Positions 10,163 through 37,675 of a stretch of DNA of 38,565 nucleotides are shown in pieces (positions within the stretch are counted from its first letter, which is position 1; each line of letters starts with the position of its first letter). The stretch is from contig JAQXZB010000031.1 of the NCBI GenBank assembly GCA_029226975.1, forward strand, positions 1-38,565, given 5' to 3'. The stretch is from Clostridiales bacterium (lineage in GTDB: Bacteria; Bacillota; Clostridia; UBA1381). The notes below the pieces were generated by a model. It saw only the letters and a program-made list of their open reading frames with translations. It had not been told where the DNA came from and ran no database searches. The position numbers and the translations under genes were made by a program.

Positions 10163-10223
10163 AAAAGCATGATATGCAACAGAATCGAAAAACATGATGG
10201 TAAAGAAAGTGGAGGTGTTAGAG

Positions 10224-13038: not shown

Positions 13039-13133
13039 AATTTTTAATAAAGGAGCGAGGAAAAATGATAAAATAGGAAAAACGATGTAAGAAGAAAATG
13101 AAAAAGAAAAAATTATTAAAAAGGAGAGGAAAA

Positions 13134-15476
13134 ATGATGAAAAACAGTAGAAGAACATTCAAACAGTGGTCGGCGGCATTTCTTACCTTGTGTATGCTGG
13201 CTGCAGCAGTGCCGGTGGGTGCAACAGGGACAGAGTATATCTCACCGCAACCGGATACAGGCGTGCCTGAAGGGTCGGTAGATACAACACCGGCAACATA
13301 TAAATTTACGGTTGACGGCAAGGGCTTTGTACTGCTTGATAACGATGAATCGACTTATTATGTGACAACCACGGATGCCTATGGCGATATGGAGACGATT
13401 TCAGATAGTAATATGGATGGATTTGAAAATCCCACAGGCAAACAGATTAACTATGACGCATATAAATCCGATACGTTTTTAAACGGAGCATTTTTAACAA
13501 GCGGAAATAACTTCACTTCATCGGGCAATGACGCAACTACCTATTATAAATTGCCGCAGGGAATTATTGACAACATTGACACAACTCATGTGTGGAAGAG
13601 ATTTGTTAACGATTATAGATCCGGTAATGGAATGCAAAGCAAATACACTACGGGTGCTTCGCTGCTTTCATGGACGGACTTTACCACATATGCCGGAAAG
13701 CTTGGTGTGAGAGATGTGTTCAACGATCCCAATGTTGCATCGACTGCCGGTAAATACTATTACCTTCGTGATTCAAACGCTTGGGGCGGCGACTCAGCTG
13801 TACTGATGTTTGGTGACTACAAAGACGAGACAAAAGACCTTGTAAACGCCACTGTATACGGCAATCAATGGGTAATGAAGTACGGACTTTTAAGACCGGC
13901 ATTTTACTTGAAAAAAGACTTCTTTAAGACAACAAAAGTTGATTTGAGCACAGCCGGCGAAACCGTCAGAATGGCTATACTCAATGCCTGCACAGAAACA
14001 GAGTTATCCAAGCTTTACACTGAGGAGGAGCGTAGTACATACTTTGGGTCTAAAAGCCCCATCAAGGTCACAACTGCTGTGCGCAGCGGAGCAGAGCTTG
14101 CTGATGTGAAGCTGCTTGATACCCTGACTGCAAGCGTGAGCGAGGGTGAGGCGACTGAATATAAATGGCAGACAAGGACCAATGAAAGTGATAAGTGGAC
14201 CGAAATTGACGGTGCCACATCAAATGAGTACATTGTAAGTGCGGCACAGGCGGGCAAGCAGGTTAGCTGTGCGGCAAAGGTGGACGGCGTGTGGATTTAC
14301 GGCGAAGCGGTACAAATTCCGATGTATGAAGCTGTTGAAACGGGTGACGGCACCGCTGTGCCCGCGGGGACGATTGATACAACGGCAGCTTCGGATAAAT
14401 TCACAGTTGACGGCAAGGAGTTTGTACTGCTTGATACCTTTGATAACGACGAGTCGACCTATTATGTGACAACTACGGACGCTTACGGCGATATGCAGCT
14501 CAAAACAGATGGCAAATGGTGGACTCTTTCGGGCAAGGAAATTAACTATGACGCATATAGTGTCACCGGCTTTTTAAACGTAGACTTTTTAACAAACGGA
14601 AACAACTTCACTGAACTTGGAAACGACACAACAACCTATTACAAGCTGCCGCAGGGTATTATTGATAACATAAACCAAAACCATGTATGGTGGAGATTTG
14701 TCAATGAAACCAAAAAGGGAGAAGGCGTTAAGAGCACATATCAGGCAGGAGTTTCATTCCTTTCATGGACGGACTTTACCACATATGCCGGTAAGCTTGG
14801 CGTCAAAGACGGATGCTTTAATTCAAGTGTTGCAAATGCCGATACATACTTCCTCAGAGATACAAACAACTGGAGGGGCGATAATGCTTTGGCACTGTTT
14901 TGTACCACAGATAATCAATGTAAACATTGGGGGCAATATGTAAGGCAGTACGGACTTGTGAGACCGGCATTCTACTTAAAGAAGGACTTCTTTAAGAATA
15001 CAAAGCTTGATTTAAATGCAACGGGCGAAAATGTTTTGGCGGTTATGAGAGACAATTATTACATCGAGGATTTGCTCCATCTGTATTCTATGCAGGAGCT
15101 TTGCGAAAAGGGCTTTGACACACGCAATTACGCAATGAAGGCAAGCCTGACATATTCCGACGCGGAAAATAATCCTCTTGATAGCTTAAACAATGCGGCT
15201 AAGGTAAATGCGGCGGTTACAATCGAGAACGGAACGTCGGAGGAAAAGAGCGCTATTTTGATTTTCAGAGCGGTAGATTCCAAAAACGGGCTTTATGTTT
15301 CCACAAAGTCGGTTACAGTTGCGGCAAATGGAGAAACACCCGAGGAAATATCACTTGACGGACTCGAAAACATGACTGACGGGTGTCAGGTAAATGTATT
15401 TCTGTGGGAAAGCTTTGATACATTGAAACCTATGACGCAAAGTCTGACATATGGTCAAAGCAGCAGTGCGGAATAA
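13134..15476 (+). CDS. Secreted protein with two DUF6273-like repeats and an Ig-like domain
   Basis: This 780-residue exported protein has a signal peptide (basic RRTFKQW, hydrophobic LTLCMLAAAV, cut near VGA). It is followed by DUF6273-like repeat A1 (residues 57-305), an Ig-like module (about 306-400; WQTRTN, AAQAGKQVSC), repeat A2 (422-664), and a C-terminal beta domain ending VNVFLWESFDTLKP. The repeat has fixed landmarks: FTVDGKGFVLL, YYVTTTDAYGDM, FLNG.FLT.GNNF, YKLPQGIIDNI, LLSWTDFTTYAGKLG, a FLRD-type Trp/Gly block, and LRPAFYLKKDFF. The LLS..., LR... and RPA..L order is that of DUF6273. A1 lacks three residues (TFD) present in all other full copies. No catalytic residues or SLH domains are visible. 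AAGGAGAGG supports a start at 13134 or 13137. Function unknown; binding or structural role inferred. Confidence 0.8.
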   Translation: MMKNSRRTFKQWSAAFLTLCMLAAAVPVGATGTEYISPQPDTGVPEGSVDTTPATYKFTVDGKGFVLLDNDESTYYVTTTDAYGDMETISDSNMDGFENPTGKQINYDAYKSDTFLNGAFLTSGNNFTSSGNDATTYYKLPQGIIDNIDTTHVWKRFVNDYRSGNGMQSKYTTGASLLSWTDFTTYAGKLGVRDVFNDPNVASTAGKYYYLRDSNAWGGDSAVLMFGDYKDETKDLVNATVYGNQWVMKYGLLRPAFYLKKDFFKTTKVDLSTAGETVRMAILNACTETELSKLYTEEERSTYFGSKSPIKVTTAVRSGAELADVKLLDTLTASVSEGEATEYKWQTRTNESDKWTEIDGATSNEYIVSAAQAGKQVSCAAKVDGVWIYGEAVQIPMYEAVETGDGTAVPAGTIDTTAASDKFTVDGKEFVLLDTFDNDESTYYVTTTDAYGDMQLKTDGKWWTLSGKEINYDAYSVTGFLNVDFLTNGNNFTELGNDTTTYYKLPQGIIDNINQNHVWWRFVNETKKGEGVKSTYQAGVSFLSWTDFTTYAGKLGVKDGCFNSSVANADTYFLRDTNNWRGDNALALFCTTDNQCKHWGQYVRQYGLVRPAFYLKKDFFKNTKLDLNATGENVLAVMRDNYYIEDLLHLYSMQELCEKGFDTRNYAMKASLTYSDAENNPLDSLNNAAKVNAAVTIENGTSEEKSAILIFRAVDSKNGLYVSTKSVTVAANGETPEEISLDGLENMTDGCQVNVFLWESFDTLKPMTQSLTYGQSSSAE
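13302..14048 (+). repeat. DUF6273-like repeat A1
   Basis: This is the first of eight copies of a roughly 245-residue module in the window. It has a 9-base deletion relative to the others (LLDNDES instead of LLDTFDNDES), sitting between two GAT words. Confidence 0.75.
14397..15126 (+). repeat. DUF6273-like repeat A2
   Basis: It carries the full landmark set and belongs to a subtype with the insert KTDGKWWTLSGKE and the segment CKHWGQYVRQYG, shared with repeat C2 (and partly B1) rather than with A1. Confidence 0.75.
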
Positions 15477-15492
15477 GATTTAAAATTATTTG

Positions 15493-15525
15493 TGCGGATA
15501 GTCGTTTAAAACTCGGCTATCCGCA
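15493..15525 (+). other. Stem-loop between the two 780-residue genes
   Basis: A perfect 9-bp inverted repeat (TGCGGATAG 15493-15501 / CTATCCGCA 15517-15525) is followed by TCTAAAAAAAG, without a T run on the plus strand. It could be a partial terminator or an RNA-stability element. Confidence 0.5.
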
Positions 15526-15625
15526 TCTAAAAAAAGATTCACATACAGAGCAATCTATGACATTGGGTATGGAGTATTAAAGATGACAGAGAGCTATAAG
15601 GCTTATGAAAAAGGAGTACGAAAAA

Positions 15626-17968
15626 ATGGTAAAAAGAAGTGTTGGTACGGTTAAACGATTGTCGGCGGTATTTCTTACCTTGTGTATGCTGACTGCAGCA
15701 GTGCCGGCGGGCGCAACAGGGACAGAGTATATACCTACGGGTAATGAACTTGATTCGCCCGGCGAAACAGTGGATACGACGCCCGCCGCAGATAAATTTA
15801 CGATAGACGGCAGGGGCTTTGTACTGCTTGATACATTTGATAACGATGAATCGGCTTATTATGTAACAACGACGGATGCCTATGGCGATATGGAGACGAT
15901 TTCAGATGGTACTGAGGGTGGATTTGAAAATCCCGCAGGGAAGCAGATTGACTATGATGCATACAAATCTGATGCGTTTTTAAACGGAGACTTTTTAACA
16001 AAGGGAAATAACTTCACTTCGCTTGGCAATGATACAACGACATATTATAAACTGCCGCAGGGGATTATTGATAACATTGACAACAATCATGTGTGGAAGA
16101 GATTTGTTAACGATTATCGATCCGGTACGGGAGTGAAGGGAGAATACACGACGGGTGTTTCATTGCTTTCTTGGACGGACTTTACCACATATGCCGGTAA
16201 ACTTGGCGCCGTAGACGGATTTTTGAATTCCAATGCATCAAACGCCGATGTGTACTTTCTTCGCGATACGAACAACTGGGGCGGCGATTCTGCTTTGGCA
16301 ATGTTTTGTACCGCAGATAAAAAATGCAAACATTGGGGGCAGTATGTAAGGAAGTACGGATTTTTAAGACCGGCGTTTTACTTGAAAAAGGACTTCTTTA
16401 AGACAACAAAAATCAATCTTGCGACTATGGGTAAAAATGTCAAAGAAGCTATCCGTACAGCCTGCACAGACGATGAACTGATTGAGCTTTACGGCGTACG
16501 GGACTGTAAGACTTACTTCGGAATGGATATTGATATTGCCTACATTGAGCTTTCGCTCAGAAACGGCAAGGACATAGGAGATGCAAATATTCTGGATACG
16601 GTTATCGCGACAGCGGAAAACGCAGTTGTGGATGAGTTTTGCTGGGAAATCAGCGATGACGATGGGAGCAATTGGTATAAGGCTGAGGACGAAACAGGAA
16701 ACAGCATTATTTTAACGGCAGAATATGCCGGTAAGCTGCTCCGCTGCAGAGCAGAATCAGACGGCGAGGAGATTAGCAGTGCAATCCTGAAAGTACCCAA
16801 TCCTGAAATTGCGCAGACCCAAAGCGCCAATCTTGATGGCTTCATGGAGGAAACGCCCGATAAGTACCGGTTCACGATAGACGGCAGGGGCTTTGTGCTG
16901 CTTGATACCTTTGATAACGACAAATCGACCTATTATGTGACGACAACGGAAGCCTACGGTGATATGCAGACCCTGGCGGTAGAGAGCGGAGATTTTGAAG
17001 TTCCCACAGGGAAGCAGATTAACTATGACGCATACAAATCCGATGCATTTTTAAACGGAAGCTTTTTAACAAACGGAAACAACTTTTCTGTACTAAGCGA
17101 TGACACTAAAACCTATTACAAGCTGCCGCAGGGAATTATTGATCACATAAACAAAGACCATGTATGGTGGAGATTTGCCAATGCTGCCATGCAGAGCGAA
17201 AAAGGCGTTTTGCCTACATACAAAACAGGTGTTTCACTGCTCTCTTGGACAGATTTTATGACGTATGCGGGTAAACTTGGTGTGACGGAAGTATTTGACG
17301 ATGCCAATGTAAAATTTGACAATATCGAGAAGGCGTATTATCTCCGCGATACAAACAACTGGGGCGGCGATTCCGCATTAGCGGTTCTTTGTGCCGGGAG
17401 TAATGCGGTGGGCTGTACATTTGTAGGTGTAGGCGCTCAGAAAGCAGGACTTTTGAGACCGGCATTTTATTTGGACAAGGATTTCTTTAAGACCGTAAAA
17501 ATCGACCTTTCCCAAACAGGTGAAACGATTTTGGATATGATGCGCGAAAGCTATTGTGTTGAGGACTTGACCGAACTGTATTCGGAAGAGGAATTAACCG
17601 AAAAGGGATTTTTGCACAGATATTCCATGCGGGCGTCTTACACGCAGTGCAACGATAGCAAAGAGCTTACATCTCTTGCCGGTGTGTCAAGCCTTCAGGC
17701 AAATGTTACAATCAGAAACCGCAGCAACAGTGAAACGAATGCATTACTTTTACTGGCGGTGTACAAAGAAAACGGCAATATGATAGGAATTGCAAAGAAA
17801 GAGGTTAGATTAGAGGCGCAGAGCGATACGGAAAGCAGTGTGGCTATAGAGTCTCTTCCGGAAGGAGTTACAGATAAATATAAGGTGAGTGTAATGCTAT
17901 GGGACAACGTGCATGAAATGTACTCGTTTACCGGCAACAAACTTACATTTGATAATAAGGGCAGATAA
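15626..17968 (+). CDS. Secreted protein with two DUF6273-like repeats (paralogue of the preceding gene)
   Basis: This is a 780-residue exported paralogue of the previous gene with the same length and architecture: signal peptide nearly identical in its core (FLTLCMLTAAVPAGATGTEYI), repeat B1 (57-302), an Ig-like module (about 303-395; CWEISDDDGSNW, EYAGKLLRC), repeat B2 (413-664), and the C-terminal beta domain (KVSVMLWDNVHEMYSF). The ATG at 15626 is preferred because AAGGAG (15611-15616) is 9 bases away; an ATG at 15605 lies upstream of that site. The pair arose by tandem duplication followed by divergence, especially in the Ig module. No enzyme motif or surface anchor is visible, so it is either released or held by a neighbouring SLH protein (inference). 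Confidence 0.8.
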   Translation: MVKRSVGTVKRLSAVFLTLCMLTAAVPAGATGTEYIPTGNELDSPGETVDTTPAADKFTIDGRGFVLLDTFDNDESAYYVTTTDAYGDMETISDGTEGGFENPAGKQIDYDAYKSDAFLNGDFLTKGNNFTSLGNDTTTYYKLPQGIIDNIDNNHVWKRFVNDYRSGTGVKGEYTTGVSLLSWTDFTTYAGKLGAVDGFLNSNASNADVYFLRDTNNWGGDSALAMFCTADKKCKHWGQYVRKYGFLRPAFYLKKDFFKTTKINLATMGKNVKEAIRTACTDDELIELYGVRDCKTYFGMDIDIAYIELSLRNGKDIGDANILDTVIATAENAVVDEFCWEISDDDGSNWYKAEDETGNSIILTAEYAGKLLRCRAESDGEEISSAILKVPNPEIAQTQSANLDGFMEETPDKYRFTIDGRGFVLLDTFDNDKSTYYVTTTEAYGDMQTLAVESGDFEVPTGKQINYDAYKSDAFLNGSFLTNGNNFSVLSDDTKTYYKLPQGIIDHINKDHVWWRFANAAMQSEKGVLPTYKTGVSLLSWTDFMTYAGKLGVTEVFDDANVKFDNIEKAYYLRDTNNWGGDSALAVLCAGSNAVGCTFVGVGAQKAGLLRPAFYLDKDFFKTVKIDLSQTGETILDMMRESYCVEDLTELYSEEELTEKGFLHRYSMRASYTQCNDSKELTSLAGVSSLQANVTIRNRSNSETNALLLLAVYKENGNMIGIAKKEVRLEAQSDTESSVAIESLPEGVTDKYKVSVMLWDNVHEMYSFTGNKLTFDNKGR
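15794..16530 (+). repeat. DUF6273-like repeat B1
   Basis: The full landmark set is present: YKLPQGIIDNI, LLSWTDFTTYAGKLG, FLRDTNNWGGDSALAMF, CKHWGQYVRKYG, FLRPAFYLKKDFF. Confidence 0.75.
16862..17617 (+). repeat. DUF6273-like repeat B2
   Basis: The landmarks are all kept, with local variants (LSWTDFMTYAGKLG, FYLDKDFFKTVKIDLSQTGET). The end matches C3 better than B1, indicating that first and last repeats form position-specific subtypes. Confidence 0.75.
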
Positions 17969-18021
17969 ACAGTAATGTTTTATGTACAATGGAACGGCGT
18001 AAAGCCAAAGGAGGAAACTTG

Positions 18022-21000
18022 ATGAAACGTTATTTCCTTGCTGTTATAACAGCGTTTGCACTGATATGTAATGTTGTTCTTGCAGATGGAATACCTATGC
18101 AAGCGGTTGGATATAGTTTGGAATCGGACACTGCTGTCGGTGAATCAATTTATGAAACCGAGCTTAGTTTAGACGGTTATGCAATGGGTACGAGGGTAAC
18201 ATATACCGTATCGGATGGCACGGAGAGTGTAAACGCTGATGTTACAATCAGAAGCGAAAATTCAGAGGAAAAGAATGCTGTGCTGATTTTTAAGGCGTTA
18301 AATTCAAATGGTAGGTTTTATTTGACGACAACGCCGGTTAAAATAGGGGCAAATGGAGAAACATCTGCGGAAATTTCCCTGAACGGACTCGAAAATGCGG
18401 CTGATGGATACCGGTGGAGTCTGTACCTATGGGATGCTTTCGATACATTAAAACCATTGACAAAAAGCCTGACAATTCTTCAAAACAGCGATGCGATGGT
18501 TGATGTGTCTGTTTCTGTGCGCAGAGGGGCAGCGCTTTCGGAGGTTAAATTGCTTGATACCTTGGTTGCGGGTGTGAACACAAATATGCAAGCAGCTTAC
18601 CTGTGGCAGATCAGCCATGACGATGGAGCAAGCTGGACGGACATCGAGGGTGAAACCTCGGCGGCGCATATCGTAAGTGCGGCTGAAGCGGGTGCGAAGG
18701 TACGCTGTGCGGTCACAGAGGACGGATATATGTATGCGGCAAGCACCGCGGTACAAATTCCGAATTATGAAGTTAATGCGACGGGTGACGGGATTGCCGC
18801 ACCTGTTGGTACGGTGGATACAACGCCCGATGCGGATAAATTTACGGTTGACGGCAGAGGATTTGTACTGCTTGATACATTTGATAACGATGAATCGGCT
18901 TATTATGTGACGACAACGGATGCCTATGGTGACTTAAATGTACTTACAACCGGTGATTTTGAAAATCCCACAGGAAAGCAGATTAACTATGATTCATACA
19001 AATCCGATGCGTTCTTAAACGGAGAATTTTTAACAAACGGAAATAACTTCACTTCGCTTGGCAATGACACAACAACCTATTATAAACTGCCGCAGGTGAT
19101 TATTGATAACATTAACAAAAATCATGTGTGGAAAAGATTTGTTAACGATACTCGATTCGGTGCAGGAGTGCTGAGAGAATACAAAACGGGTGTTTCATTG
19201 CTTTCGTGGACGGATTTTACAACATATGCCGGTAAACTCGGCGTGATGGATGTATTTAATGACGTCAATACGAAAGAAGCCAATGTATACTTTCTCCGCG
19301 ATACAAATAATTGGGGCGACGATAATGCTTTAGCGCTTTTCGGCGCAGAGAAGTATGAAAAAAAGTGTGTGCATAAGGGCTGGTATGTTGAGGAGTACGG
19401 GCTTTTGCGACCGGCATTTTATCTGAAAAAGGACTTCTTTAAGAGTACAAAGCTTGATTTAAATGCAGCGGGCGAAAATGTCAGGGCAGCTATACGCAAT
19501 GCCTGCACAGATGAAGATTTATTCAGGCTTTACAATTCGGAGGAGTGTAAGAAATACTTTAACATTGAAAACCCAATCAAAGTCACAACAGCTGTGCGCA
19601 GCGGGGCAGAGCTTGCTGATGTGAAGCTGCTTGACACCTTGACTGCAAGCGTGAGCGACGGTGAGGCGACCGAATATAAATGGCAGATGCGGATGAGTGA
19701 AGGCGACAACTGGACTGACATCGAGGGTGCGACATCAAATGAGTATATTGTAAGCGCGGCGCAGGCAGGTGCGCAGGTGAGCTGTGTGGCAAAGGTGAAT
19801 GACGGGTGGATTTACAGCGAAGCTGTACAAATTCCAATGTATGAAGCTAATGCAACGGGTGCTGACGCTGCTGCACCCGAGGAAACGGTTGATACAACGG
19901 CCGGCGCAGATAAATTCACAGTTGACGGCAAGGGGTTTATACTGCTTGACATCTTTGATAACGATGCGTCAACTTATTATGTGACAACGACGGACGCTTA
20001 CGGTGATATGCAGCTGAAAACAGATGGCGAATGGTGGACGCTTTCGGGCAAGGAAATTAACTATGACGCATATAATTCCATTGCGTTTTTAAACGGAGAC
20101 TTTTTAACAGAGGGAAATAACTTTACTTCGCTTGGCAATGACACAAAAACCTATTATAAGCTGCCGCAGGGAATTATTGATAACATAAACCAAAACCATG
20201 TGTGGTGGAGATTTGTCAATGACTACAGAAAACAAGAAGGTGCTAAGAGTACATACCGGGCAGGAATTTCATTCCTTTCGTGGACAGACTTTACTACATA
20301 TGCCGGTAAACTTGGCGTCAAAGACGGATTTTTGAATTCCGGTGCGGCGAATGCCGATGTGTATTTTCTCCGCGATACGAACAACTGGGGCGGTGATACT
20401 TCTTTAGCACTGTTTTGTACCGCAGATAAACAATGTAAACATTGGGGGCAATATGTAAGGCAGTACGGACTTTTAAGACCGGCGTTTTATTTGAAAAGGG
20501 ACTTCTTTAAGACGACAAAAATCGACCTTGCGACTATGGGCGAAAATGTTAGAACAGCTATTCGTGAGGTTTGTACCGACGAGGACTTGAAAAAACTTTA
20601 CACTGAGGAAGAGTGCGAGGACTATTTCGGGATTGTGCGCCCGTTAAGCGTCAAAACAACGGTACGCAGCGGAATGCCCCTTGAAGATGTCGAGCTTCTC
20701 GACACCTTAACGGCAAGTGTGAACAAAAATGTGGCGGCAGATTACCGGTGGCAGGTTAGCCGTAACAACGGAGCAAGCTGGGCGGACATTGTCGACGAAA
20801 CTTCGACGGAGTACATTGTCAGTGCTGAGGAAGCCGGTGCGCTGGTGCGCTGTACGGCAACGGTAGCCGGGAATGCAGTCAGCGGAGAAGCGGTACAGAT
20901 TCCAAATCCCGCTATCAAGACGCCGGAACCTGTTAATCTCGATGCTTTTGCGGAAAAAACACCGGATAAGTTTCGTTTTACGGTTGAAGGTAAGGATTTT

Positions 21001-23319: not shown

Positions 23320-23343
23320 GAGTAAAGTTAAGGAGGAAACTTG

Positions 23344-25044
23344 ATGAAACGGTATTTAATTGCTGTTGTGACAGTGTTCGTGTTAATATTAAACATTGGT
23401 TTTGCAGCAGAAGCATCTGTGCAAACGGTAAAATACGACACAGAAAATGAAATTCTGACTGTTAAAGGCAGTGCAGATTCAAAAATGCAGTCAATATCTT
23501 TAGAGGTGCTAAAGGGCGGAGTGACTGCCGGACAGTTTGATTTTGCCGACGCTGAAGAACGATTCAATATGCTTGTGCATGCAGATGAAACGCTGAGCGC
23601 AGATGATGGAAGCTGGCAATTCAGCTTTGGATTTCCGGCAGACTCCAAACGGCACGTCATCCGCGTTCGGACGGGAATAAACGGGGAAATTGAACAGCGC
23701 AGTATTGTTGCGGCAACGAACAGTGAGTTTGAAACTGCAATGGAGATGATGAACAGCGCCGGCTCTAATGATATTTCGGATGTACTGAAAAAATGTGCGG
23801 GAATTCTTGGCTTGGATTGTGATACACTTGAAATGCTGCCTGATAAAAATTGCGATGCAATGGCACTGAGAATATTAAACGAACGTGATAAACAGCAAAA
23901 CAAGGTATTTGCCGGATATGAGCAGCTTGAAGCGGTATTCAATGAGAACCTTGCTGTTGAATGTGTGAACGTTGCCGACGGGAGTAATATTGCGGCAGTA
24001 TTGGAAAAATACAAAGAATACTTTACATATAAAAACGGAAAATCGTATCAGATTTTTGAGGGTTTAAGTGCAGACAGTCAAAAAAATGTTTATACAAATC
24101 TCGCAAAAGCAGATTACGGCAGTCCGGCGGCAGTTGATACAGCGTTCGGATTGGAAACGGTACGGGTCAGACTTGCGGCGCTTCGCGGGTATGATGAATT
24201 GTATGATGTTCTTCCGCAATGCGCAGATGCTTTAGAGGCGAATATTTCAAAATATACGGCGCTTTCAAAGGAAAATCAGCTGAAGGCTTGCTCCGAAATC
24301 ATAACAAACCTGTTAGGAAAAGATGTTACAAAGGAATCTTTGGAAACAATCGTAAGCAGTGCCGCTGAGAAATACAGCTCTAACGGAACAACGGGCGGCG
24401 GCTCCGGTGGCGGCGGCGGAAACGGCGGAGGAACAGTGTCGACGGGCACAACATCTCAAACTCCGAATATTGATGTTGCAGCGCCAAATAAGCCGTATGG
24501 CAGTTCTTCGCTATTCAATGACATTGGAAGTGTTTCGTGGGCACAAGACAGCATCGAGGAATTGGCAAGACGCGGCGTTATCAACGGAAAGGCGGATAAA
24601 ATCTTTGCGCCGAACGATACGGTAACGAGGGAAGAATTTGTGAAGATGGTTGTGCTGGCGCTAAATATTACGGCAGAGGACACAAGCTGTGATTTTACTG
24701 ACGTAATAGATGATGCTTGGTACAAAGAGTATGTCGGCAGGGCTGTGGGAAGCGGTCTTGTGAACGGTCATGGAGACGGAACTTTTGGCGTGGGCGAGAA
24801 TATAACAAGGCAGGACATCGCAGTTATTTTGTGGAACGGTATTAAGAGTAAAGTAGGAAACGGAAGTGCGGCTGCTTTTATTGACAACGATGATGTTTCA
24901 GACTATGCAAAAGAGGCGGTAAATGCGATGCGGTATTTAAATATCATTGACGGATATGAAGATAATACATTTCGACCAAGCAACGCCGCGACGCGGGCAG
25001 AGGCGGCAAAACTTCTGTACAAAGCTGTGCAGATAGCGGAATAG
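23344..25044 (+). CDS. Secreted protein with three C-terminal SLH domains
   Basis: This 566-residue exported protein has a signal peptide (KRYLIAVVTVFVLILNIGFA), an N-terminal Ig-like beta domain (about 22-120), a mainly helical region (about 125-345), a Gly/Thr/Ser linker (about 349-368, GGGSGGGGGNGGG), and three SLH domains (about 385-566). The SLH repeats show LFNDIGSVSWAQDSIEELARRGVI, DFTDVIDDAWYKEYV and FRPSNAATRAEAAKLL. SLH domains bind pyruvylated secondary cell-wall polymer, so the protein is displayed on the envelope with its N-terminal parts outward. It could be a docking partner for the repeat proteins upstream (inference). The start is ATG 23344; its ribosome site and first residues copy those of the giant gene. 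No catalytic motif is seen. Confidence 0.88.
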   Translation: MKRYLIAVVTVFVLILNIGFAAEASVQTVKYDTENEILTVKGSADSKMQSISLEVLKGGVTAGQFDFADAEERFNMLVHADETLSADDGSWQFSFGFPADSKRHVIRVRTGINGEIEQRSIVAATNSEFETAMEMMNSAGSNDISDVLKKCAGILGLDCDTLEMLPDKNCDAMALRILNERDKQQNKVFAGYEQLEAVFNENLAVECVNVADGSNIAAVLEKYKEYFTYKNGKSYQIFEGLSADSQKNVYTNLAKADYGSPAAVDTAFGLETVRVRLAALRGYDELYDVLPQCADALEANISKYTALSKENQLKACSEIITNLLGKDVTKESLETIVSSAAEKYSSNGTTGGGSGGGGGNGGGTVSTGTTSQTPNIDVAAPNKPYGSSSLFNDIGSVSWAQDSIEELARRGVINGKADKIFAPNDTVTREEFVKMVVLALNITAEDTSCDFTDVIDDAWYKEYVGRAVGSGLVNGHGDGTFGVGENITRQDIAVILWNGIKSKVGNGSAAAFIDNDDVSDYAKEAVNAMRYLNIIDGYEDNTFRPSNAATRAEAAKLLYKAVQIAE

Positions 25045-25065
25045 ATTAGCACAGGAGGAGCAGTT

Positions 25066-27798
25066 ATGAAAAAAATCAACAAAATAGTTTCTTGCATATT
25101 AACAGTCATGTTGATTGTGACAAATTTTACAGTTGGAGTATATGCAAAAACGGAAAAAACCGTAAGTGACGACTATAGACAATATGAGGCTCGCGTTCTG
25201 CATGATTTAGGTATCATCGATACAGATATGCAAATCGAACAAAATATGTCGAGAGCGGAATTTGCGGGAGTATTTGCAAAGTTTATGAATATCAATGCAG
25301 ATACGGCAGTTAATATGGCGGATGTAGCGGATATAGAAGATGAGTATATATATGCTCCGTCAATCAGACTGATGCTGGATAGGGGATATATGTCTCTTGA
25401 CGGAAAGAAGAATTTCTTCCCCGGAAGCGCCGTTACATATGCCGATGCGGCTATGGCATTGGTTAAGGCACTCGGTTATGAACCTTATGTCAGTGCAAAA
25501 GGAATCAGTGCCTACGGATATATCGATTGTGCTATGCAGATAGACATAGAACTTGCAGGGAAAGGGGAAAAAGACTCTCTGACATACGGCGATGTAATTC
25601 ACTTGCTGTTTTCTGCACTTGAGGTCAGTATCCTTGAAGCAAGGACCTATTCTTCAGAAAAAATTGAATATACAAATCGTGCCGGAAAGACACCGCTGAG
25701 CGAATGGCATGATGTTTATGTGACAAAAGGAATTTTATATAACATTGAAAATGGTACGGCGAGCGTTACTGTCGATAAAATCGGCAAAGAAGCCGTCAGG
25801 ATAGGAGACGGGATATACAGTGTCGGACAGGTGAAAGCTGCTGAATTTTTGGGATATGCGGTTAAGGGCTATTATTACGGCGGAAACAGAACGCCGGAAA
25901 ATGAATTGGTATCGATTATTCCGCTGCGCGGCAAAAACGAAATTACAAGTATAGATGCAGAGGACATTGTAAGCTATAAAGACAATGTTTTAACCGTTAA
26001 CAACGGAAACAGAAACAAGCAGTACGATATATCTCCGGCTACCGATGTCATTTATAACGGCGAAGCGGTAAGCTACGAAAACCGAGACAAGGCACTGAAT
26101 ATCGACTGTGGAACAGTGTTGATTAATGAAGTGAATTTTGACGGTGTAGATTCGGTAGTGATTGTAACGGCCTATGAAAACTATGTGGTAGGAGCAATAG
26201 ACAAAGAAAAACAAATTGTTTACGATAAACTGGATAACAACAGAAGTCTTAGCCTGCGTGATGATAACAGCGACGTTAAGATTAAAGAAACAAACGGAAA
26301 GATTATCAATCTTGAAAATCTTAATGTTGGCGATGTTTTGACTGTTGCCGCAAGCTTGGGCTCAATGAGAATAGAAGTTATCCGAAGCAATCAAAAGATA
26401 ATCGGAAATATATCCGAAAGAGGCAAGGAAGGCACAAAAGATGAGTATATAAAGATTGATGGCATCACGTATTCTGTTGCTAAAAACTATCGTGATTCAA
26501 AGACCGAACGCCTAAATTTAAATGCACCGGTATCTGTTACTTTGGACACATGGGGAAAGGTGGCGGACATTTCCGATGTAGATATGAGCGGATATAAGAT
26601 TGGCATATTAAAGACGGTGGGGATACTGGATCATTTAAGCCCTGAGAGACTTTCTATGAGAATTTTTGACAGAGATGGAAAAATGAGGGTTTATGAATCG
26701 ATAGATCGTGTGGTAATAGACAATTATCGTACAAAAACTGCAGAAGAAGCGAAAAATGTTTTGGAATCGGTAACCGGAATATCCGTTTATCAGCCGATAC
26801 GGTATTTATTAAATTCCGAAGGTCTGGTTTCAAATATTGACACGACATATTATAATGAAGCTGCGGGCGAGTCCGAGCAGAGTCTGCGGTATATCTGGCG
26901 GTCTTATAAAGACGACTATACAACTCGCGGGTATGGAACGGATATACAGTATATGTATTGGGCGAATAAAAATTTCGGCAGAAAATTTTTTGCGGGTCAG
27001 TGGGCGACGCTCATGAAGCTGCCGAGACAAAATACTGCCGATAATAAGTTTTTTGTCACCGAGGCTGAATGGGTTAGCGGAAGGTATTATTATGTTGACG
27101 CACTGGCAGTGGGGCGTGATAATTTTTGTGCCGATGTTGTGATACAGTATTATGACGCAGCAGAGGGCAGCACCGAGGGTCAAACGCTTCGTTACGGTCT
27201 GGTGACGGAGGTTGTATATGCAATGGATGACGATGGGGGAACTGCTTATAGAATTTCGTATATTGATGGGTACGGCGGCGGTACCCGAACAGAGTTTGTC
27301 GACAGCGACTGCAGCATAACAGACGCTGCGTCTGTCAAGCCGGGCGATACTAATACCTATCAAATATCCGAAGGCGATTTTGTTCGCTTTTCAACCGGTG
27401 CCGGAGACATGATTGTTAATGCCCAAGTCATATATGATGCGGAAACCGGAATGTGGGCAAGTGATATGCCGCATATCAGAGATGACAGAACAGAAGGAAT
27501 TGTAAACTGCAACATGGAGGTTAATGAGCTGTTCCACGGATATGTACTTCAGAATGAAAATTCCTATATACGTCTTTCAGGCGAAAAGCCGGACAATGTT
27601 ACAGATTCCATTATGGATAGTGCGTATGTGTTTAAAATTACAAACGCCACAGTCTATAAATATAATTCGCGCACAGGAAAACTTGTAGCTGTAGATGCTT
27701 CGGAAATCATTCCGTTTGAATATTCATATGGCGATTGCTCTGAGGTAATTACGGGTGATTTGGGCGGCTTAACACCGTTCGTAGTAATTTATAATTGA
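25066..27798 (+). CDS. S-layer-like protein with degenerate N-terminal SLH domains
   Basis: This 910-residue exported protein has a signal peptide (KKINKIVSCILTVMLIVTNFTVGVYA), then about 170 residues with three divergent SLH repeats (MSRAEFAGVFAKFMNI, FFPGSAVTYADAAMALVKALGY, LTYGDVIHLLFSAL). The remaining 700 residues are predicted beta-rich with no enzyme motif, with alternating short segments such as GDVLTVAASLGSMRIEVI and a C-terminal half containing several Tyr/Trp-rich blocks. This layout is common in S-layer or envelope structural proteins of Clostridia. It lies 21 bases after the SLH gene and 17 bases before the SLH-hydrolase gene, so it is co-transcribed. A structural role is inferred; I cannot name a family for the large region. 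Confidence 0.8.
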   Translation: MKKINKIVSCILTVMLIVTNFTVGVYAKTEKTVSDDYRQYEARVLHDLGIIDTDMQIEQNMSRAEFAGVFAKFMNINADTAVNMADVADIEDEYIYAPSIRLMLDRGYMSLDGKKNFFPGSAVTYADAAMALVKALGYEPYVSAKGISAYGYIDCAMQIDIELAGKGEKDSLTYGDVIHLLFSALEVSILEARTYSSEKIEYTNRAGKTPLSEWHDVYVTKGILYNIENGTASVTVDKIGKEAVRIGDGIYSVGQVKAAEFLGYAVKGYYYGGNRTPENELVSIIPLRGKNEITSIDAEDIVSYKDNVLTVNNGNRNKQYDISPATDVIYNGEAVSYENRDKALNIDCGTVLINEVNFDGVDSVVIVTAYENYVVGAIDKEKQIVYDKLDNNRSLSLRDDNSDVKIKETNGKIINLENLNVGDVLTVAASLGSMRIEVIRSNQKIIGNISERGKEGTKDEYIKIDGITYSVAKNYRDSKTERLNLNAPVSVTLDTWGKVADISDVDMSGYKIGILKTVGILDHLSPERLSMRIFDRDGKMRVYESIDRVVIDNYRTKTAEEAKNVLESVTGISVYQPIRYLLNSEGLVSNIDTTYYNEAAGESEQSLRYIWRSYKDDYTTRGYGTDIQYMYWANKNFGRKFFAGQWATLMKLPRQNTADNKFFVTEAEWVSGRYYYVDALAVGRDNFCADVVIQYYDAAEGSTEGQTLRYGLVTEVVYAMDDDGGTAYRISYIDGYGGGTRTEFVDSDCSITDAASVKPGDTNTYQISEGDFVRFSTGAGDMIVNAQVIYDAETGMWASDMPHIRDDRTEGIVNCNMEVNELFHGYVLQNENSYIRLSGEKPDNVTDSIMDSAYVFKITNATVYKYNSRTGKLVAVDASEIIPFEYSYGDCSEVITGDLGGLTPFVVIYN

Positions 27799-27815
27799 GG
27801 TGAGGAGGGCTTTCT

Positions 27816-30800
27816 ATGAAGTTAAAGAAAATAACAGCGTGTATACTGGCGTCGAGCCTGATATTTGCTTCAGTTTCCGCTATTGCCTACAACGACGTGC
27901 CGGAGGATTATCCATATGGCGAAGCAATTGCATTTTTGACAGATTCGGGAGTTGTCCAGGGGGACGGAAACGGAAATTTTGCGCCAAAGGAGCTTTTGGA
28001 GCGCGCTGAGTTTGCGGTCATGTTAGATGCAGCGTTTGATATTGGCGGTGAAGAACAGCATGATTTTACTGATGTGCCGGCAGGCGCTTATTACGAAAAA
28101 GCACTGGGCAGACTGCAAAAAGCGGGTATTTTAAACGGTAAGAGCGACGGTATTTTTGCACCGAATGACAGCGTTACCCACGAAGAAGCGGTAAAGATGA
28201 TTGTGGAGGCATATGAGTATGTCACCGGTGAGAGTATGATTAGCGGCGTTGAGGTTATCCCTAAGGATTATGACAGCGTTTCGGATTGGGCGAAGACATC
28301 AATGGATAAGGCGATGGAATATCGTATACCTTTGGTTTCGGAAGCGAATACACTTTCTCCGACAGCGGCGCTGACCAGAGGCGAGGCGGCGAAACTTGTC
28401 ACGAATGCACTGCTTTGTCTCGGTGAGCCGAAGCGGCAGCAGGGCATTCAGCCTACAAAGATTATACAAAATAAATTAGGAAATGTATATTATACAACGG
28501 AACCGGCTGCATTTGAAGTATCAACGGACTACAGCTTGATTCGCTACGAGGTCCGCGACTTTTATAATACAATAGTCAAAGAAGGCTATGCAAAAGCAAG
28601 AGGCGGCAGAGCAAAATTTGATTTTACCGATTTGGGAATCGGGCATTACAGCTTCTCGGCATATAGCCCGACAGACGATGAGACAACGGAGCTTTGCAAA
28701 ACCTTTTTCTGCATTATAAATGAGTATGATTTTACGGATATTGATCCCGAAACGGCGAAATTCGGCATAAACACCCATTTGGAAAATGCATGGCAGGGTT
28801 GGGAGCATGAGCTTTTGGAACTGGCAAACATTGCGGGTGCGAGAATTTTCCGCGACGGCTCCTGGTGGGAAAATGTTGAACGAGAAAAAGGTGTATATCA
28901 CTCGGGCTTGGCAAGTAATTCTATGGAATATGCCAAAAAGTATAATATGGCAGCGTGGGATTTAACTGTACAGACGCATAGATTTTACGACGGCGGCGTG
29001 ACACCTTATACGGAGGAAGGAATTAACGGGCAGGCGAATTTTGCAAACGCTCTTGCGGATTGCTGGAACGGTAGAATGAAATGGATTGACATACTCAATG
29101 AGTTTGAGGATACAAGTTCAGGACCGGAAGGCAAGAAGCCGCAGACTTTATATAATATTGTGAAGCGCTGCTATGAGGTTGTAAAGCCAAACCATCCGGA
29201 TGTCCAAATCGGTGTTACTGCCTACGGCAGTGAATGGGACGAAGAATTTTATAAGCTCGGTGCTTTTAATTATCTTGACTATTTGGGAGTACACCGTTAT
29301 CCGAAGATGGTAATAGGTGATACACCCGGTTTAGGACCCGAAACAGATATTAAGCCGCTATACGATAAAATAAAGACCATGGTGGATAAGTATAATACAA
29401 GCGGACACAAGGTACACATTTATATGAATGAAACGGGAGGGCATACGGCTAATTTTTCCGCCGGGGTTACATATCGCGAGCAGGCGGAGTATGTGCCGCG
29501 TATCCTGGCTACGGCACTGTCGGCCGGTTTTGAGAATGTAATATGGTACTCTTTGATGAACGACGGACATGATGAGAATATCAACGAGCAGAATTTCGGA
29601 CTCATTTATTCCAGCAAAGGTAAGTACGGAGATTGGGCACCGAAAGAGGCTTACCAGGCATACTGCGTGGCAACAAGAAAACTCTCGAGAGCCGATGTGA
29701 AGGAGACCGTAACGGATGGAAATATATACCGATATGTGTTTACCACAGAGGACGGGAAGGATTTGAGCGTGCTTAATGCGCTGAACGGAGCGGATGTTGC
29801 GCTGTATACCGATGAACCGGTTAAGATTACGAATATTATGGGCAAAGAGGAAATCTATACACCGGTAAACGGGAAAATCTATCTTGAACTAAAACCTGAA
29901 CCTGTATATGTTGAAGGAACGATAAATGTAAAAGAGGAAAAGCTGCCGGTTAAGGCAGAGCTGTCAAATTTAATCGTTGATTCAACGGCGAAGCTGAGTG
30001 TTGAAGTGGACGATGACCTAAATGCAGGCGATATTACTGCAGAGTTTAACGGAGAGAGCTTCATACCGGGCGAAGAATTGTCGATTGTAACGACCAAGAA
30101 ACAAGAAAAGGCTTCGATTGTGACGGTGGTGAAGGCTGATGGCAAGCCGTTTGCAAGATTGTATGATGATGTGGAATACAGACAGCCTTATGACCTGACA
30201 GTGAAGGAAAATTTGTCTATGAAGGAAGATATGAACATTGTATGCGATCTTGATTTTACCGTACAAAACAACATGGATGAGGATATAGCCGTAAACGGCA
30301 TCCGATATCAGTTTGGCGATCGGGAAGGAACCATAGAGGTTTCGGGTGTTATTCCGGCAAAGGAAAGTCAGACATGGCAGTATTCCTTTGATAAGCTGAC
30401 GTCCGGTCTGGTTTATAACGCAAGGTTCAACCTGATTTGCGATAAATATGAATCCGAAGCTGCGGATTTTGAAGGGAATTATGACTATAATGTAATGCCG
30501 CGCGGAAAGATGGTAATAGACGGAAAGGTTGACGAGAACCTTGAAAATCTGAAAAACTGTTTGTATATCCCGCCGGAATCCATGGTGAAAGCAATATTGA
30601 TGCCGGGATCGCTGTCAAATACCGAGGACTATAATGCACAGGCATGGCTGAGCTACGATGATGATAATGTATATCTATGCGTGGACGCAACGGATGATAT
30701 ACATTCCGCACCGCAAGCAGGGAGTAACATATGGAGTAATGATGGTATTCAGTTCACATTTTATGCCGATGGATTTGGGGATCTGAAGTACCCGCCAATA

Positions 30801-31172
30801 TCGGATAAAGATGATACATCGGCAATGGGCGAGCATTTCTATTATGAATTTGGTGTGTCGCTGCTGGATTCGGGTGTGACGGAAAAGGCATGTTGGCGTG
30901 ATGTTGCAAACGGCACAGCACCAAGGAGGGACTATCCTTATAATTATGTAATAAAACGTGATGAAACAACGAAGCACACAGTATATGAACTTGCAATCCC
31001 ATGGAGTACCATATATCCTCTTACCCCGGATAAAGTTGAGGATTTGCGTATGTCTGTTGTTGTTGTCGAGAATAATATGAATGGCCGAGACGGCTGGCTT
31101 GAATGGGGCGGCGGCATTGCTTATTCGAAGGATGTGTCTTTGTTTAAACATATTCATTTATTAAAGAAGTAA
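27816..31172 (+). CDS. SLH-anchored clan GH-A glycosidase with CBM9-like C-terminus
   Basis: This is an 1118-residue surface enzyme. Signal peptide; three SLH domains (about residues 24-200; YNDVPEDYPYGEAIAFL, DFTDVPAGAYYEKAL, LTRGEAAKLV); an Ig-like segment (about 215-300); a TIM barrel (about 310-600) with ILNEFED (acid/base candidate E429) and YMNETGG (nucleophile candidate E539); beta domains; and a C-terminal module (about 895-1118) of the CBM9-like type, with MVIDGKVDENL, AWLSYDDDNVYLCVDATDD and WSNDGIQF. The barrel is homologous to that of the giant protein (FGINTHLENAWQGWE against FGINTHFELNWLGWD), so both probably attack the same or related glycans, one wall-anchored and one carrying DUF6273-like repeats. 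GGAGG lies 7 bases before the ATG. The family number and substrate are not recognisable. Confidence 0.85.
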   Translation: MKLKKITACILASSLIFASVSAIAYNDVPEDYPYGEAIAFLTDSGVVQGDGNGNFAPKELLERAEFAVMLDAAFDIGGEEQHDFTDVPAGAYYEKALGRLQKAGILNGKSDGIFAPNDSVTHEEAVKMIVEAYEYVTGESMISGVEVIPKDYDSVSDWAKTSMDKAMEYRIPLVSEANTLSPTAALTRGEAAKLVTNALLCLGEPKRQQGIQPTKIIQNKLGNVYYTTEPAAFEVSTDYSLIRYEVRDFYNTIVKEGYAKARGGRAKFDFTDLGIGHYSFSAYSPTDDETTELCKTFFCIINEYDFTDIDPETAKFGINTHLENAWQGWEHELLELANIAGARIFRDGSWWENVEREKGVYHSGLASNSMEYAKKYNMAAWDLTVQTHRFYDGGVTPYTEEGINGQANFANALADCWNGRMKWIDILNEFEDTSSGPEGKKPQTLYNIVKRCYEVVKPNHPDVQIGVTAYGSEWDEEFYKLGAFNYLDYLGVHRYPKMVIGDTPGLGPETDIKPLYDKIKTMVDKYNTSGHKVHIYMNETGGHTANFSAGVTYREQAEYVPRILATALSAGFENVIWYSLMNDGHDENINEQNFGLIYSSKGKYGDWAPKEAYQAYCVATRKLSRADVKETVTDGNIYRYVFTTEDGKDLSVLNALNGADVALYTDEPVKITNIMGKEEIYTPVNGKIYLELKPEPVYVEGTINVKEEKLPVKAELSNLIVDSTAKLSVEVDDDLNAGDITAEFNGESFIPGEELSIVTTKKQEKASIVTVVKADGKPFARLYDDVEYRQPYDLTVKENLSMKEDMNIVCDLDFTVQNNMDEDIAVNGIRYQFGDREGTIEVSGVIPAKESQTWQYSFDKLTSGLVYNARFNLICDKYESEAADFEGNYDYNVMPRGKMVIDGKVDENLENLKNCLYIPPESMVKAILMPGSLSNTEDYNAQAWLSYDDDNVYLCVDATDDIHSAPQAGSNIWSNDGIQFTFYADGFGDLKYPPISDKDDTSAMGEHFYYEFGVSLLDSGVTEKACWRDVANGTAPRRDYPYNYVIKRDETTKHTVYELAIPWSTIYPLTPDKVEDLRMSVVVVENNMNGRDGWLEWGGGIAYSKDVSLFKHIHLLKK

Positions 31173-31186
31173 GGGAGAGATGCGGT

Positions 31187-32407
31187 ATGATAAGAAAAAT
31201 TAAATGCTTTGTGTGCTTTGCGGCACTGCTCTGTATGATAGGCACATCTATACCCGTTGGCGCGGTAAAGCCGAGCACAAACAGGCATTGGCTCAAAAAT
31301 TCGCCGAAAGAGAATATATTTAGCATAGATGGAACAACGCAGGAATTTGTGCTGCTTGAAACAACTGACAGTGATACATCAACATTCTTTGTTTTTGCCA
31401 AAGATTTTTATGGCAATATGCCGTTTGATACAGGCGGAAGTCCTGTTTTTGATCCGACTAACACGAAAAATGTTGGATTTTGGCTGAATAATGGATTGCT
31501 TTCAAGTGGATTTGTCGGAGAAAATCGAAAAACTTTTAAGCTTCCGGATGGTATTATCGAGCATATTGATACTAATCACGAGTGGAAAATAGAAGCGGGC
31601 GAGAACACGCCCGCACATTCGGTCACATGCGGGGTATGCTTGCCTTCCCAGGAGGAAGTTTTAAAGCATAAGGATAAAATTGGCGTCGAAGACGGAATTA
31701 ACGATGCGGATGTGTATACCGCGCACGGTTGGATGCTCAGAGATGTTTATATCGGACCCTTGTCCTTCCGTTACAATGCTCCCGCTGAGGGATTCAATGG
31801 CTTTGGAGATATATTTTCATGGGATACAGCGGGGAAGGGAATTGCAATACGCCCGGTGTTTTATCTTGACAAAGAGTTCTTTAAAGAGGTAAAGTTGGAT
31901 CTAAATAACATTGGTGATAATGTAATCTCAATGTTTAAGAAGATGTATAGCATGGATGATCTTCAAAACATATATACCGATGAAGAATTATGGGATGTTT
32001 TCGGATATAAATCGGGAATTGTGATTACAGTTCCCGGATTTACGGATAAAAATGGGGAAAAGGCAGAAGATTTAGCTAAGCAGGATTATATAAATGTCAT
32101 TGTAGATTTAAAATCCACAATGGTTAATGCTTGTGATGTTATGCTGCTGTCGGTTCTCTATGGCTCGGATAACTGCCCGATAAGTTTTTCGCGAAAACGG
32201 TTTGGAATGAACAGCGGTGAGAATAAGACAGTTGACATTGGGATGCCTTTGGAGGAAACCTATAAGGAAAAGGGTGCGTATATTAAGGTCTATGCACTTA
32301 GATGCGGCAACCGTCTTAATGCCCTTTCCAATGCGGTCAGAATACCATTGGATGCCGAAAAGACGGCAGAGTCTGCCGAGGATAACACATATGTAGCGTT
32401 GCCGTAG
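31187..32407 (+). CDS. Secreted protein with one divergent DUF6273-like domain
   Basis: This is a 406-residue exported protein: signal peptide (KIKCFVCFAALLCMIGTSIPVGA), one DUF6273-like domain (about 40-270) and a C-terminal beta domain (about 275-390). Landmarks remain recognisable but are clearly diverged from the seven upstream copies: FSIDGTTQEFVLLE, FKLPDGIIEHID, CLPSQEEVLKHKDKIG (in place of LSWTDFTTYAGKLG), WMLRDVYIG, and IRPVFYLDKEFFKEVKLDL. The closer fit of CLPSQEEV to the usual DUF6273 pattern supports the family link. It starts 14 bases after the SLH-hydrolase gene, so it belongs to the same transcript, and is followed after 84 bases by the sugar-binding lipoprotein. Function unknown; ligand-binding accessory role inferred. 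Confidence 0.8.
   Translation: MIRKIKCFVCFAALLCMIGTSIPVGAVKPSTNRHWLKNSPKENIFSIDGTTQEFVLLETTDSDTSTFFVFAKDFYGNMPFDTGGSPVFDPTNTKNVGFWLNNGLLSSGFVGENRKTFKLPDGIIEHIDTNHEWKIEAGENTPAHSVTCGVCLPSQEEVLKHKDKIGVEDGINDADVYTAHGWMLRDVYIGPLSFRYNAPAEGFNGFGDIFSWDTAGKGIAIRPVFYLDKEFFKEVKLDLNNIGDNVISMFKKMYSMDDLQNIYTDEELWDVFGYKSGIVITVPGFTDKNGEKAEDLAKQDYINVIVDLKSTMVNACDVMLLSVLYGSDNCPISFSRKRFGMNSGENKTVDIGMPLEETYKEKGAYIKVYALRCGNRLNALSNAVRIPLDAEKTAESAEDNTYVALP
31309..32000 (+). repeat. DUF6273-like repeat F (divergent copy)
   Basis: This is the eighth copy, alone in its protein and much less similar to the others than they are to each other, so it is probably the older form. Confidence 0.65.
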
Positions 32408-32491: not shown

Positions 32492-33913
32492 ATGAAAATG
32501 AGGATACGGAAAACCGGGAAAAGGCTGCTTGCGATGTTTGCGGCGGTTACGATGATGACGGGGGCGCTTGCAGGTTGCGGCAACATGGCATCTGATAAGG
32601 ACGATCAGGGCAGAACTGTCATATCCATTGGAAGCTGGCCGGACAAGGAGGGAACCGAAAAGGAGACGTTGGACGCAAGAAAGGCGCGTTTTGAAGAAGC
32701 AAACAGTGATGTTGTCATAATTCCCGATACCTGGGTGTTTGACATAAAGACATTTTCTGCAAAGGCTGCGGGCGGTCAGCTTCCAACCCTATATAACACA
32801 CATTTTACCGAGGTTCCGCAGATTATGTCGGCAGGATATTCGGCAGATATTACAGATACACTTAAAAAGCACGGATTATATGATAAGTTTAATAAGCAGA
32901 TTTTGGATATCGTGTCCAAGGACGGCAGGGTTTACGCTTTTCCGTTTGCTGCATATGTGCTTGGTATGGCATATAATGTAGAAATGTTTGAAGCGGCAGG
33001 TCTGATGGAGGCTGACGGAACACCCAAACAGCCCAAAAACTGGGACGAGGTTGTGGAGTTTGCCGTAAAGATTAAGGAAGCAACAGGAAAGCCCGGTTTT
33101 ATTTTCCCGACGGCAAATAACAACGGCGGATGGATATTTACATCTCTTGCATGGTCGTTTGGCGCTAAATTTATGGAGCAGGATGCCGACGGCAAATGGA
33201 AAGCGACCTTCGACAGTCCGGAAGCAGCAGCCGCACTTCAATGGATCAAGGATTTAAAGTGGAAGTATGATGTTCTGCCGGCAAATACACTGATTGACGG
33301 AACGGAATATTACAAGGTATTCGGCACCGCAAATGCCGGTATGATGATTTCAGCGGGCGATATTCCCGGAAAGGTGACCGAATATGGTATGCAGCCCGAT
33401 GATTTAGGTATGTTTGCCATGCCTGCGGGACCCAAGCGTCATGTTACATTGTTGGGCGGTTCGGTATTTGAACTTTCAAATAAAGCGACGGAGGATCAGA
33501 TTGATGCTGCTCTGCGCTGGTTAGAGGGAGAGTATACGCCTGAGGTAACGGACGAGTTTAAAACCATTACCGAAACGGCAATGAATAATGCCATTGAAGA
33601 AAATCAGCTCATCGGTATTAAATCGTTGAATATATGGGCAAACGATACAGACTCTGTCAAATATTCCCATAAGCTGATTGAAGATAAAGCAAATGCGAAT
33701 ATAAATCATGTTAAGCTGTATAATGACTTTACAGCGGACCTTGGCGAGTGCGAGATTCAGGCAGAGGAGCCGGTTTGTGCACAGGAACTTTATGGTGTAC
33801 TGGATTCCTGTATACAGGAGGTATTGGTGAATGAAAATGCGGATTGTACTGAACTTTTGAAGAAAGCAGCATCGGATTTCCAGAAAAATTACCTCGACAA
33901 TTTGGATTATTAA
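32492..33913 (+). CDS. ABC sugar transporter substrate-binding lipoprotein (family 1)
   Basis: This 473-residue protein carries a lipoprotein signal (ALAGCGN; the Cys would be lipid-modified and anchor it to the outer face of the membrane). It has the fold pattern of extracellular solute-binding protein family 1, which captures oligosaccharides for CUT1 importers: ISIGSWPD at the start of the mature domain, AKAAGGQLPTLYNTH, VYAFPFAAYVLGMAYNVEMFEAAGL, and PKNWDEVVEFA. AAGGAGAG precedes the ATG. It lies directly upstream of two permease genes, separated from them by a strong hairpin that would let it be made in excess. The bound glycan is presumably a product of the surface hydrolases (inference). 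Confidence 0.93.
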   Translation: MKMRIRKTGKRLLAMFAAVTMMTGALAGCGNMASDKDDQGRTVISIGSWPDKEGTEKETLDARKARFEEANSDVVIIPDTWVFDIKTFSAKAAGGQLPTLYNTHFTEVPQIMSAGYSADITDTLKKHGLYDKFNKQILDIVSKDGRVYAFPFAAYVLGMAYNVEMFEAAGLMEADGTPKQPKNWDEVVEFAVKIKEATGKPGFIFPTANNNGGWIFTSLAWSFGAKFMEQDADGKWKATFDSPEAAAALQWIKDLKWKYDVLPANTLIDGTEYYKVFGTANAGMMISAGDIPGKVTEYGMQPDDLGMFAMPAGPKRHVTLLGGSVFELSNKATEDQIDAALRWLEGEYTPEVTDEFKTITETAMNNAIEENQLIGIKSLNIWANDTDSVKYSHKLIEDKANANINHVKLYNDFTADLGECEIQAEEPVCAQELYGVLDSCIQEVLVNENADCTELLKKAASDFQKNYLDNLDY

Positions 33914-36730: not shown

Positions 36731-36790
36731 ATGAAAAAGCCGTATAAGGATGCGGGAACGGCATATATCAATAAAATGGAGGGACGGTAA
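36731..36790 (+). pseudogene. 19-codon peptide, possibly the start of a lost GH3 gene
   Basis: An ATG 8 bases after GGAGG (36718-36722) opens a 19-codon frame beginning MKKPYKDA and ending INKMEGR. The first eight residues resemble the usual opening of GH3 beta-glycosidases; the rest does not. It stops one base before the GH2 start. It may be a relic start fused to other sequence, or a translated leader. The evidence is weak. Confidence 0.35.
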
Positions 36791-36791
36791 A

Positions 36792-37673: not shown

Positions 37674-37675
37674 TT

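Follow-up and report, generated by a model that had tools for sequence, protein, structure and literature searches.

What does a secreted module do that is repeated eight times in one stretch of a Clostridiales genome, beside surface-layer homology (SLH) proteins, glycosidase-like domains and sugar-uptake genes? The stretch, hereafter the window, is the entire 38,565-bp contig JAQXZB010000031.1 of a 2.8-Mb draft genome (GCA_029226975.1), whose nearest relatives are metagenome-assembled genomes (MAGs) of gut and rumen Clostridia. In this study, we found that the repeats form a single family which appears to be a divergent branch of DUF6273 (PF19789), and that relatives of this branch are recurrently fused to GH39-like barrels. 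We propose that it probably serves as a non-catalytic substrate-binding module.

Eight copies of one module and their kinship

A profile built from the eight copies recovered exactly these eight genome-wide (E 2.7e-73 to 4e-122), which confirms their distribution as two, two, three and one in four secreted proteins, as given in a preliminary description made from the sequence alone. The fixed landmarks listed in that description are present in the copies and the repeat family stands, with a module length nearer 235 residues than the ~245 first assigned. Copies 1 to 7 (2a to 4c below) share 57-78% protein identity among themselves, and copy 8, ~37% identical to copy 1, is an older branch. The proteins and their modules are as follows.

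13098 to 15476, plus strand: secreted protein with copies 2a and 2b
13287 to 14021, plus strand: module copy 2a (profile E 1.3e-109)
14382 to 15089, plus strand: module copy 2b (profile E 3.0e-120)
15605 to 17968, plus strand: secreted protein with copies 3a and 3b
15779 to 16498, plus strand: module copy 3a (profile E 4.1e-122), the copy used for structure prediction
16850 to 17584, plus strand: module copy 3b (profile E 2.0e-114)
17989 to 23319, plus strand: secreted protein with Ig-like domains, three modules and a GH39-like barrel (1776-residue open reading frame, probably beginning at 18022 rather than 17989)
18823 to 19536, plus strand: module copy 4a (profile E 5.8e-118)
19900 to 20604, plus strand: module copy 4b (profile E 9.3e-122)
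20959 to 21669, plus strand: module copy 4c (profile E 4.2e-114)
31187 to 32407, plus strand: secreted protein with module copy 8
31298 to 31981, plus strand: module copy 8, a divergent single copy (profile E 2.7e-73)

When the window proteins were scanned with Pfam, NCBIfam and PHROG, the modules had no match above a curated cut-off, and the copy 8 protein was the only one with any PF19789 match. The proposed relation to DUF6273 is nevertheless essentially right, since close homologues exceed the Pfam cut-off that the window copies miss: two same-family relatives score 40.4 bits (L060) and 26.6 bits (L064) as full proteins, and a PF19789 match at E up to 0.1 is found in 14 of 44 family members. 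Profile-profile alignment by hhalign of the module family to DUF6273 gave 97.1% probability and a score of 75, whereas 30 column shuffles scored at most 15 (probability at most 0.4%) and the reversed profile 11. The depth contributed by relatives is needed, as the eight window copies alone gave 4.4%. The alignment covers the C-terminal half of the module, where the order LLS, LR, RPAFYL, noted earlier, is common to module and DUF6273.

The structure model of copy 3a (predicted local distance difference test score, pLDDT, 83.9; predicted template-modelling score, pTM, 0.85) has as its best solved match 9qa6, residues 39-300, with Z 12.1 over 185 residues, a match that came from a VIA second look after Foldseek. 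Legionella Lcl follows at Z 6.8 and snake C-type lectins at Z ~5, weak taken alone, and among viral proteins it is a DUF6273 protein that matches best (E 2.0e-6). The model and these matches support the C-type-lectin or formylglycine-enzyme-like fold that the earlier description put up for comparison. The DUF6273 profile itself matches the 9qa6 protein over residues 66-254 (E 7.4e-48), and in the passages concerned of PMC12402451 the N-terminal domain of the Thomasclavelia ramosa IgA protease is named DUF6273 by its authors. Because relatives exceed the cut-off, the profiles align and the model matches 9qa6, the modules are, as far as sequence and model can tell, a divergent branch of DUF6273 with a C-type-lectin-like fold. 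They share with DUF6273, including 9qa6, the fold, the landmark order and profile similarity, but differ in lying below the Pfam cut-off, in having their own N-terminal half (FTVDG...YYVTTTDAYGD) and in being arrayed and carried on glycosidases. DUF6273 is not wholly uncharacterised, contrary to the preliminary description: passages of PMC10743442 and PMC11792537 describe it as a C-type-lectin fold and a target of phage diversity-generating retroelements.

DUF6273 as such is present in 53 of 70 genomes of the bacterium's family, and most genomes of the family carry, usually once, a DUF6273 protein of ~700 residues; in the single such protein inspected, the domain lies close to the C-terminus. 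The window's own genome encodes a 1087-residue protein with a canonical DUF6273 domain and a type I dockerin (L072, G000:C61, 579-3842, minus strand), as well as a 1525-residue Flg_new/Big_2 protein with two canonical copies (L073, G000:C91, 1023-5600, plus strand), which hints that DUF6273 may act in a cellulosome-like way. A 4193-residue open frame elsewhere (L074, G027:C9) carries DUF6273 about nine times over, in a canonical array comparable in kind.

Spacers, enzymes and surface proteins beside the module

The copies alternate with immunoglobulin (Ig)-like modules, as had been described. A tandem Ig-module model built from eight sequences had low confidence in the module region (pLDDT ~30), and the Ig part alone was used; its residues 49-140 match Ig domains with Z up to 10.8, and Pfam IG_AIR9 is matched in homologous spacers. 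In the largest protein, the modules lead into a clan GH-A barrel, in agreement with the earlier description. It is found by phmmer to 5jvk, a Bacteroides cellulosilyticus protein classed as GH39 (PMC6933502), and carries both catalytic motifs, EMYNEW (NE acid/base) and FWLSEFGWP (nucleophile E). Barrel and motifs are like those of 5jvk, but the window barrel is remote in sequence and outside the reach of Pfam's GH39 model: PF01229 matched no window protein and gave one relative (L068) 21.4 bits against a cut-off of 26.

19570 to 19845, plus strand: Ig-like spacer between copies 4a and 4b
~14055 to 14330, 16529 to 16807 and 20638 to 20913: homologous Ig-like spacers
22045 to 23316, plus strand: GH39-like clan GH-A barrel, C-terminal to copies 4a to 4c (5jvk, E 1.5e-8)

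That the modules keep company with polysaccharide hydrolases and with non-enzymatic proteins encoded nearby, as noted in the earlier description, holds again in other genomes. Modules were found in 8 of 393 Clostridia genomes surveyed, and further module genomes came from family and order searches, giving a set of 20 loci in 12 genomes. Among these loci, 17 contain a homologue of the large protein at 25066-27798 (hereafter the SLH partner), 16 a GH39-like barrel and 12 sugar-type ATP-binding cassette (ABC) transporter genes, with contig ends hiding some neighbours. Module and GH39-like barrel are fused in at least 12 proteins, and module and SLH domains in three. Of the 393 genomes, 69 have the SLH partner, among them all eight with modules (p 6e-7). 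Where modules and partner occur together, 14 of 17 loci have a GH39-like barrel, as compared to one of 10 partner loci without a module (p 0.0008). Enrichment of ABC transporter genes over control loci was not significant (12/20 vs 3/10, p 0.25), for which contig ends are partly responsible. Through the recurrent GH39-like fusions, the branch shows one mark of a carbohydrate-binding module, namely that it is a discrete non-catalytic module on carbohydrate-active enzymes. Neither a viral contig scan nor a phage tblastn search gave a match to the module.

Within the window, the genes from 11.6 to 35.9 kb all point in the same direction, with intergenic gaps of 13-128 bp, and plus-strand terminator-like sites in this region lie inside genes and never between them. 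Thus, these genes likely form an operon, and the single operon described earlier is a reasonable reading. Promoter-like sites are no more frequent than in shuffled sequence. Three module-free SLH genes (23341-31172) separate copies 7 and 8. The other genes of this region, with the regulator upstream, are as follows.

10194 to 11069, plus strand: AraC-type regulator, upstream (PF12833, 1.4e-19)
11566 to 13038, plus strand: putative glycosidase-like protein, upstream, without a family match
23341 to 25044, plus strand: surface protein with three SLH domains (PF00395, 1.9e-38), a conserved neighbour that also adjoins modules in relatives
25066 to 27798, plus strand: the SLH partner, a large secreted protein with weak SLH similarity and a conserved neighbour
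27816 to 31172, plus strand: surface enzyme with SLH domains (PF00395, 1.9e-24), GH39-like barrel (5jvk, 8.2e-7) and CBM9 (PF06452, 1.6e-5)
32492 to 33913, plus strand: sugar-type ABC solute-binding lipoprotein (PF01547, 5.5e-23)
34032 to 34964 and 34978 to 35889, plus strand: two sugar-type ABC permease genes, with homologues in module loci

The remaining window genes encode GH127, GH2 and GH67-type N-terminal pieces and AraC regulators, a content that fits use of plant polysaccharide; from the enzyme families, glucuronoxylan or arabinoxylan would be a guess at the substrate. The secreted protein at 37670-38564, with a GH67-type N-terminal domain, adjoins a truncated GH2-like reading frame (36750-37673) and has an apparent frameshift near 38200, explained perhaps by a sequencing error or by decay at the end of the contig.

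The SLH partner has 910 residues and usually lies beside a second SLH protein; it resembles a conserved surface cassette that has no named family. The window's partner is 70% identical to that of a genome from another family (L040 / L127, G384), whereas other same-family copies are 26-30% identical; likely the cassette was transferred horizontally, or a MAG contig was misbinned. The window's own genome also contains a second cassette (L136, G000:C9), with an SLH pair, GH39-like/CBM9 and an ABC transporter, which lacks modules and therefore suggests that the modules are an accessory part of the cassette.

Loop variation and alternative roles

In the phage DUF6273 proteins treated in passages of PMC11792537, the variable segment lies in the C-terminal part of the domain, and its equivalent here is residues 164-195 of copy 3a. 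These residues are 44% identical between copies 1 to 7, against 69% elsewhere in the module, whereas across orthologues five of six pairs show identities of 0.85-1.00 and the remaining pair 0.69. A sliding scan showed the same divergence pattern at residues 41-60 and 141-160. In a tree, copies 3a, 3b, 4c and 8 group with orthologues from other genomes and not with their neighbours. Adenine accounts for 0.55-0.68 of mismatches between copies. The loop pattern is consistent with copy-specific ligand faces kept by selection.

A further question is whether a diversity-generating retroelement acts on the array and rewrites the loop that precedes RPAFYL. Such elements are known to target DUF6273, and the corresponding segment is the most variable one between copies here, yet a loop divergent between copies and near-identical between most orthologues argues against rewriting; in the draft genome no extra template copy was found, and the sole reverse transcriptase match is a group II intron maturase. 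We give this reading next to no credence. Scarcely more credible is that the module is an enzyme of the formylglycine-generating or EgtB type, which would share the superfold and for which there are weak matches to SenA, EgtB and CarF: these reach Z of only 3-4, no cysteine position is shared by more than 14 of the 44 family members, and a single histidine is conserved. If the modules were adhesins that bind host mucus, immunoglobulin or other cells and had come to lie in a nutrient operon by chance, this would accord with the location of the nearest solved relative in an IgA protease and with passages proposing that phage DUF6273-Ig proteins bind cells. However, the modules are associated with GH39-like, CBM9 and sugar-uptake genes repeatedly, across 12 genomes, and the IgA protease domain is dispensable for IgA cleavage according to the passages at hand, so that we regard adhesion as improbable.

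A more serious competitor, although still a doubtful one, is that the modules are cohesin-dockerin-like, protein-binding adaptors that assemble enzymes and SLH proteins without contacting glycan. Conserved co-location with SLH proteins, several module proteins without an enzyme domain, the joining of DUF6273 to a dockerin in the window's genome and the conserved helical tail after RPAFYL, which could serve as an interface, all speak for it, and other C-type-lectin folds bind protein, as passages on Bordetella Mtd and pertactin describe. On the other hand, a face that varies from copy to copy points to different ligands more than to one shared partner, direct fusion to GH39-like barrels makes a scaffold adaptor less needed, and three relatives carry SLH domains of their own.

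Several observations weigh against substrate binding by a DUF6273 branch as well. No window copy reaches the PF19789 gathering score of 23.5 (best, 13.0 bits), and Foldseek alone found nothing in the PDB better than E 0.9. The C-terminal linker helices are also among the most divergent stretches in the sliding scan. The control loci are few and loci were scored by hand. Passages of PMC12402451 report no significant effect of the DUF6273 domain on catalysis by the IgA protease. None of the window copies contains the calcium and sugar motifs of canonical C-type lectins, EPN or QPD with WND, and any string of this type occurs in only two of 44 relatives; therefore, any sugar binding would use another mode.

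A candidate substrate-binding array

Building on the computed copies, fold, DUF6273 kinship, GH39-like fusions and conserved neighbours, we favour, as the probable role, a non-catalytic C-type-lectin-like branch of DUF6273 that binds substrate in a surface glycan-utilisation operon. In each copy, loops around residues 40-60, 141-160 and 171-195 would form a binding face that is fixed and specific to that copy. With Ig spacers holding them in series, several copies together would grip plant polysaccharide at the cell surface, where the SLH-free module proteins would also be located, and hold it for the GH39-like enzymes; the oligosaccharides would then pass to the ABC transporter. Such a capture-and-feed mechanism would act much like an array of carbohydrate-binding modules.

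Two known systems are close to this proposal. Tentaclins and other phage retroelement targets with DUF6273 likewise combine a C-type-lectin fold, Ig domains and a variable C-terminal loop, but here the operon is a chromosomal glycan operon, the retroelement was not found and the loop is fixed between orthologues. Xyn10A1 and the aldouronate cluster of Paenibacillus sp. JDR-2 (PMC4765114) are alike in having SLH and CBM9 surface enzymes with ABC oligosaccharide import, but that system binds via CBM4/9 and CBM9, whereas the window has a lectin-fold array and GH39-like enzymes. The DUF6273 passages in PMC10743442, PMC11792537 and PMC12402451, which concern phage retroelement targets and the IgA protease, make no link to glycosidases.

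DUF6273 is common in gut Clostridia and has no assigned bacterial function, and a branch linked to glycosidases, SLH proteins and an importer makes the question one that a binding assay can address directly. This branch suggests a new class of carbohydrate-binding module. More tentatively, lectin-fold arrays in gut Clostridia, kin to a scaffold that is hypermutated by phages in recognising their hosts, may constitute a new carbohydrate-binding-module family for SLH-anchored glycan capture, in a SusD-like role with specificity fixed copy by copy. The branch would then be a fixed-specificity counterpart to a scaffold that retroelements diversify.

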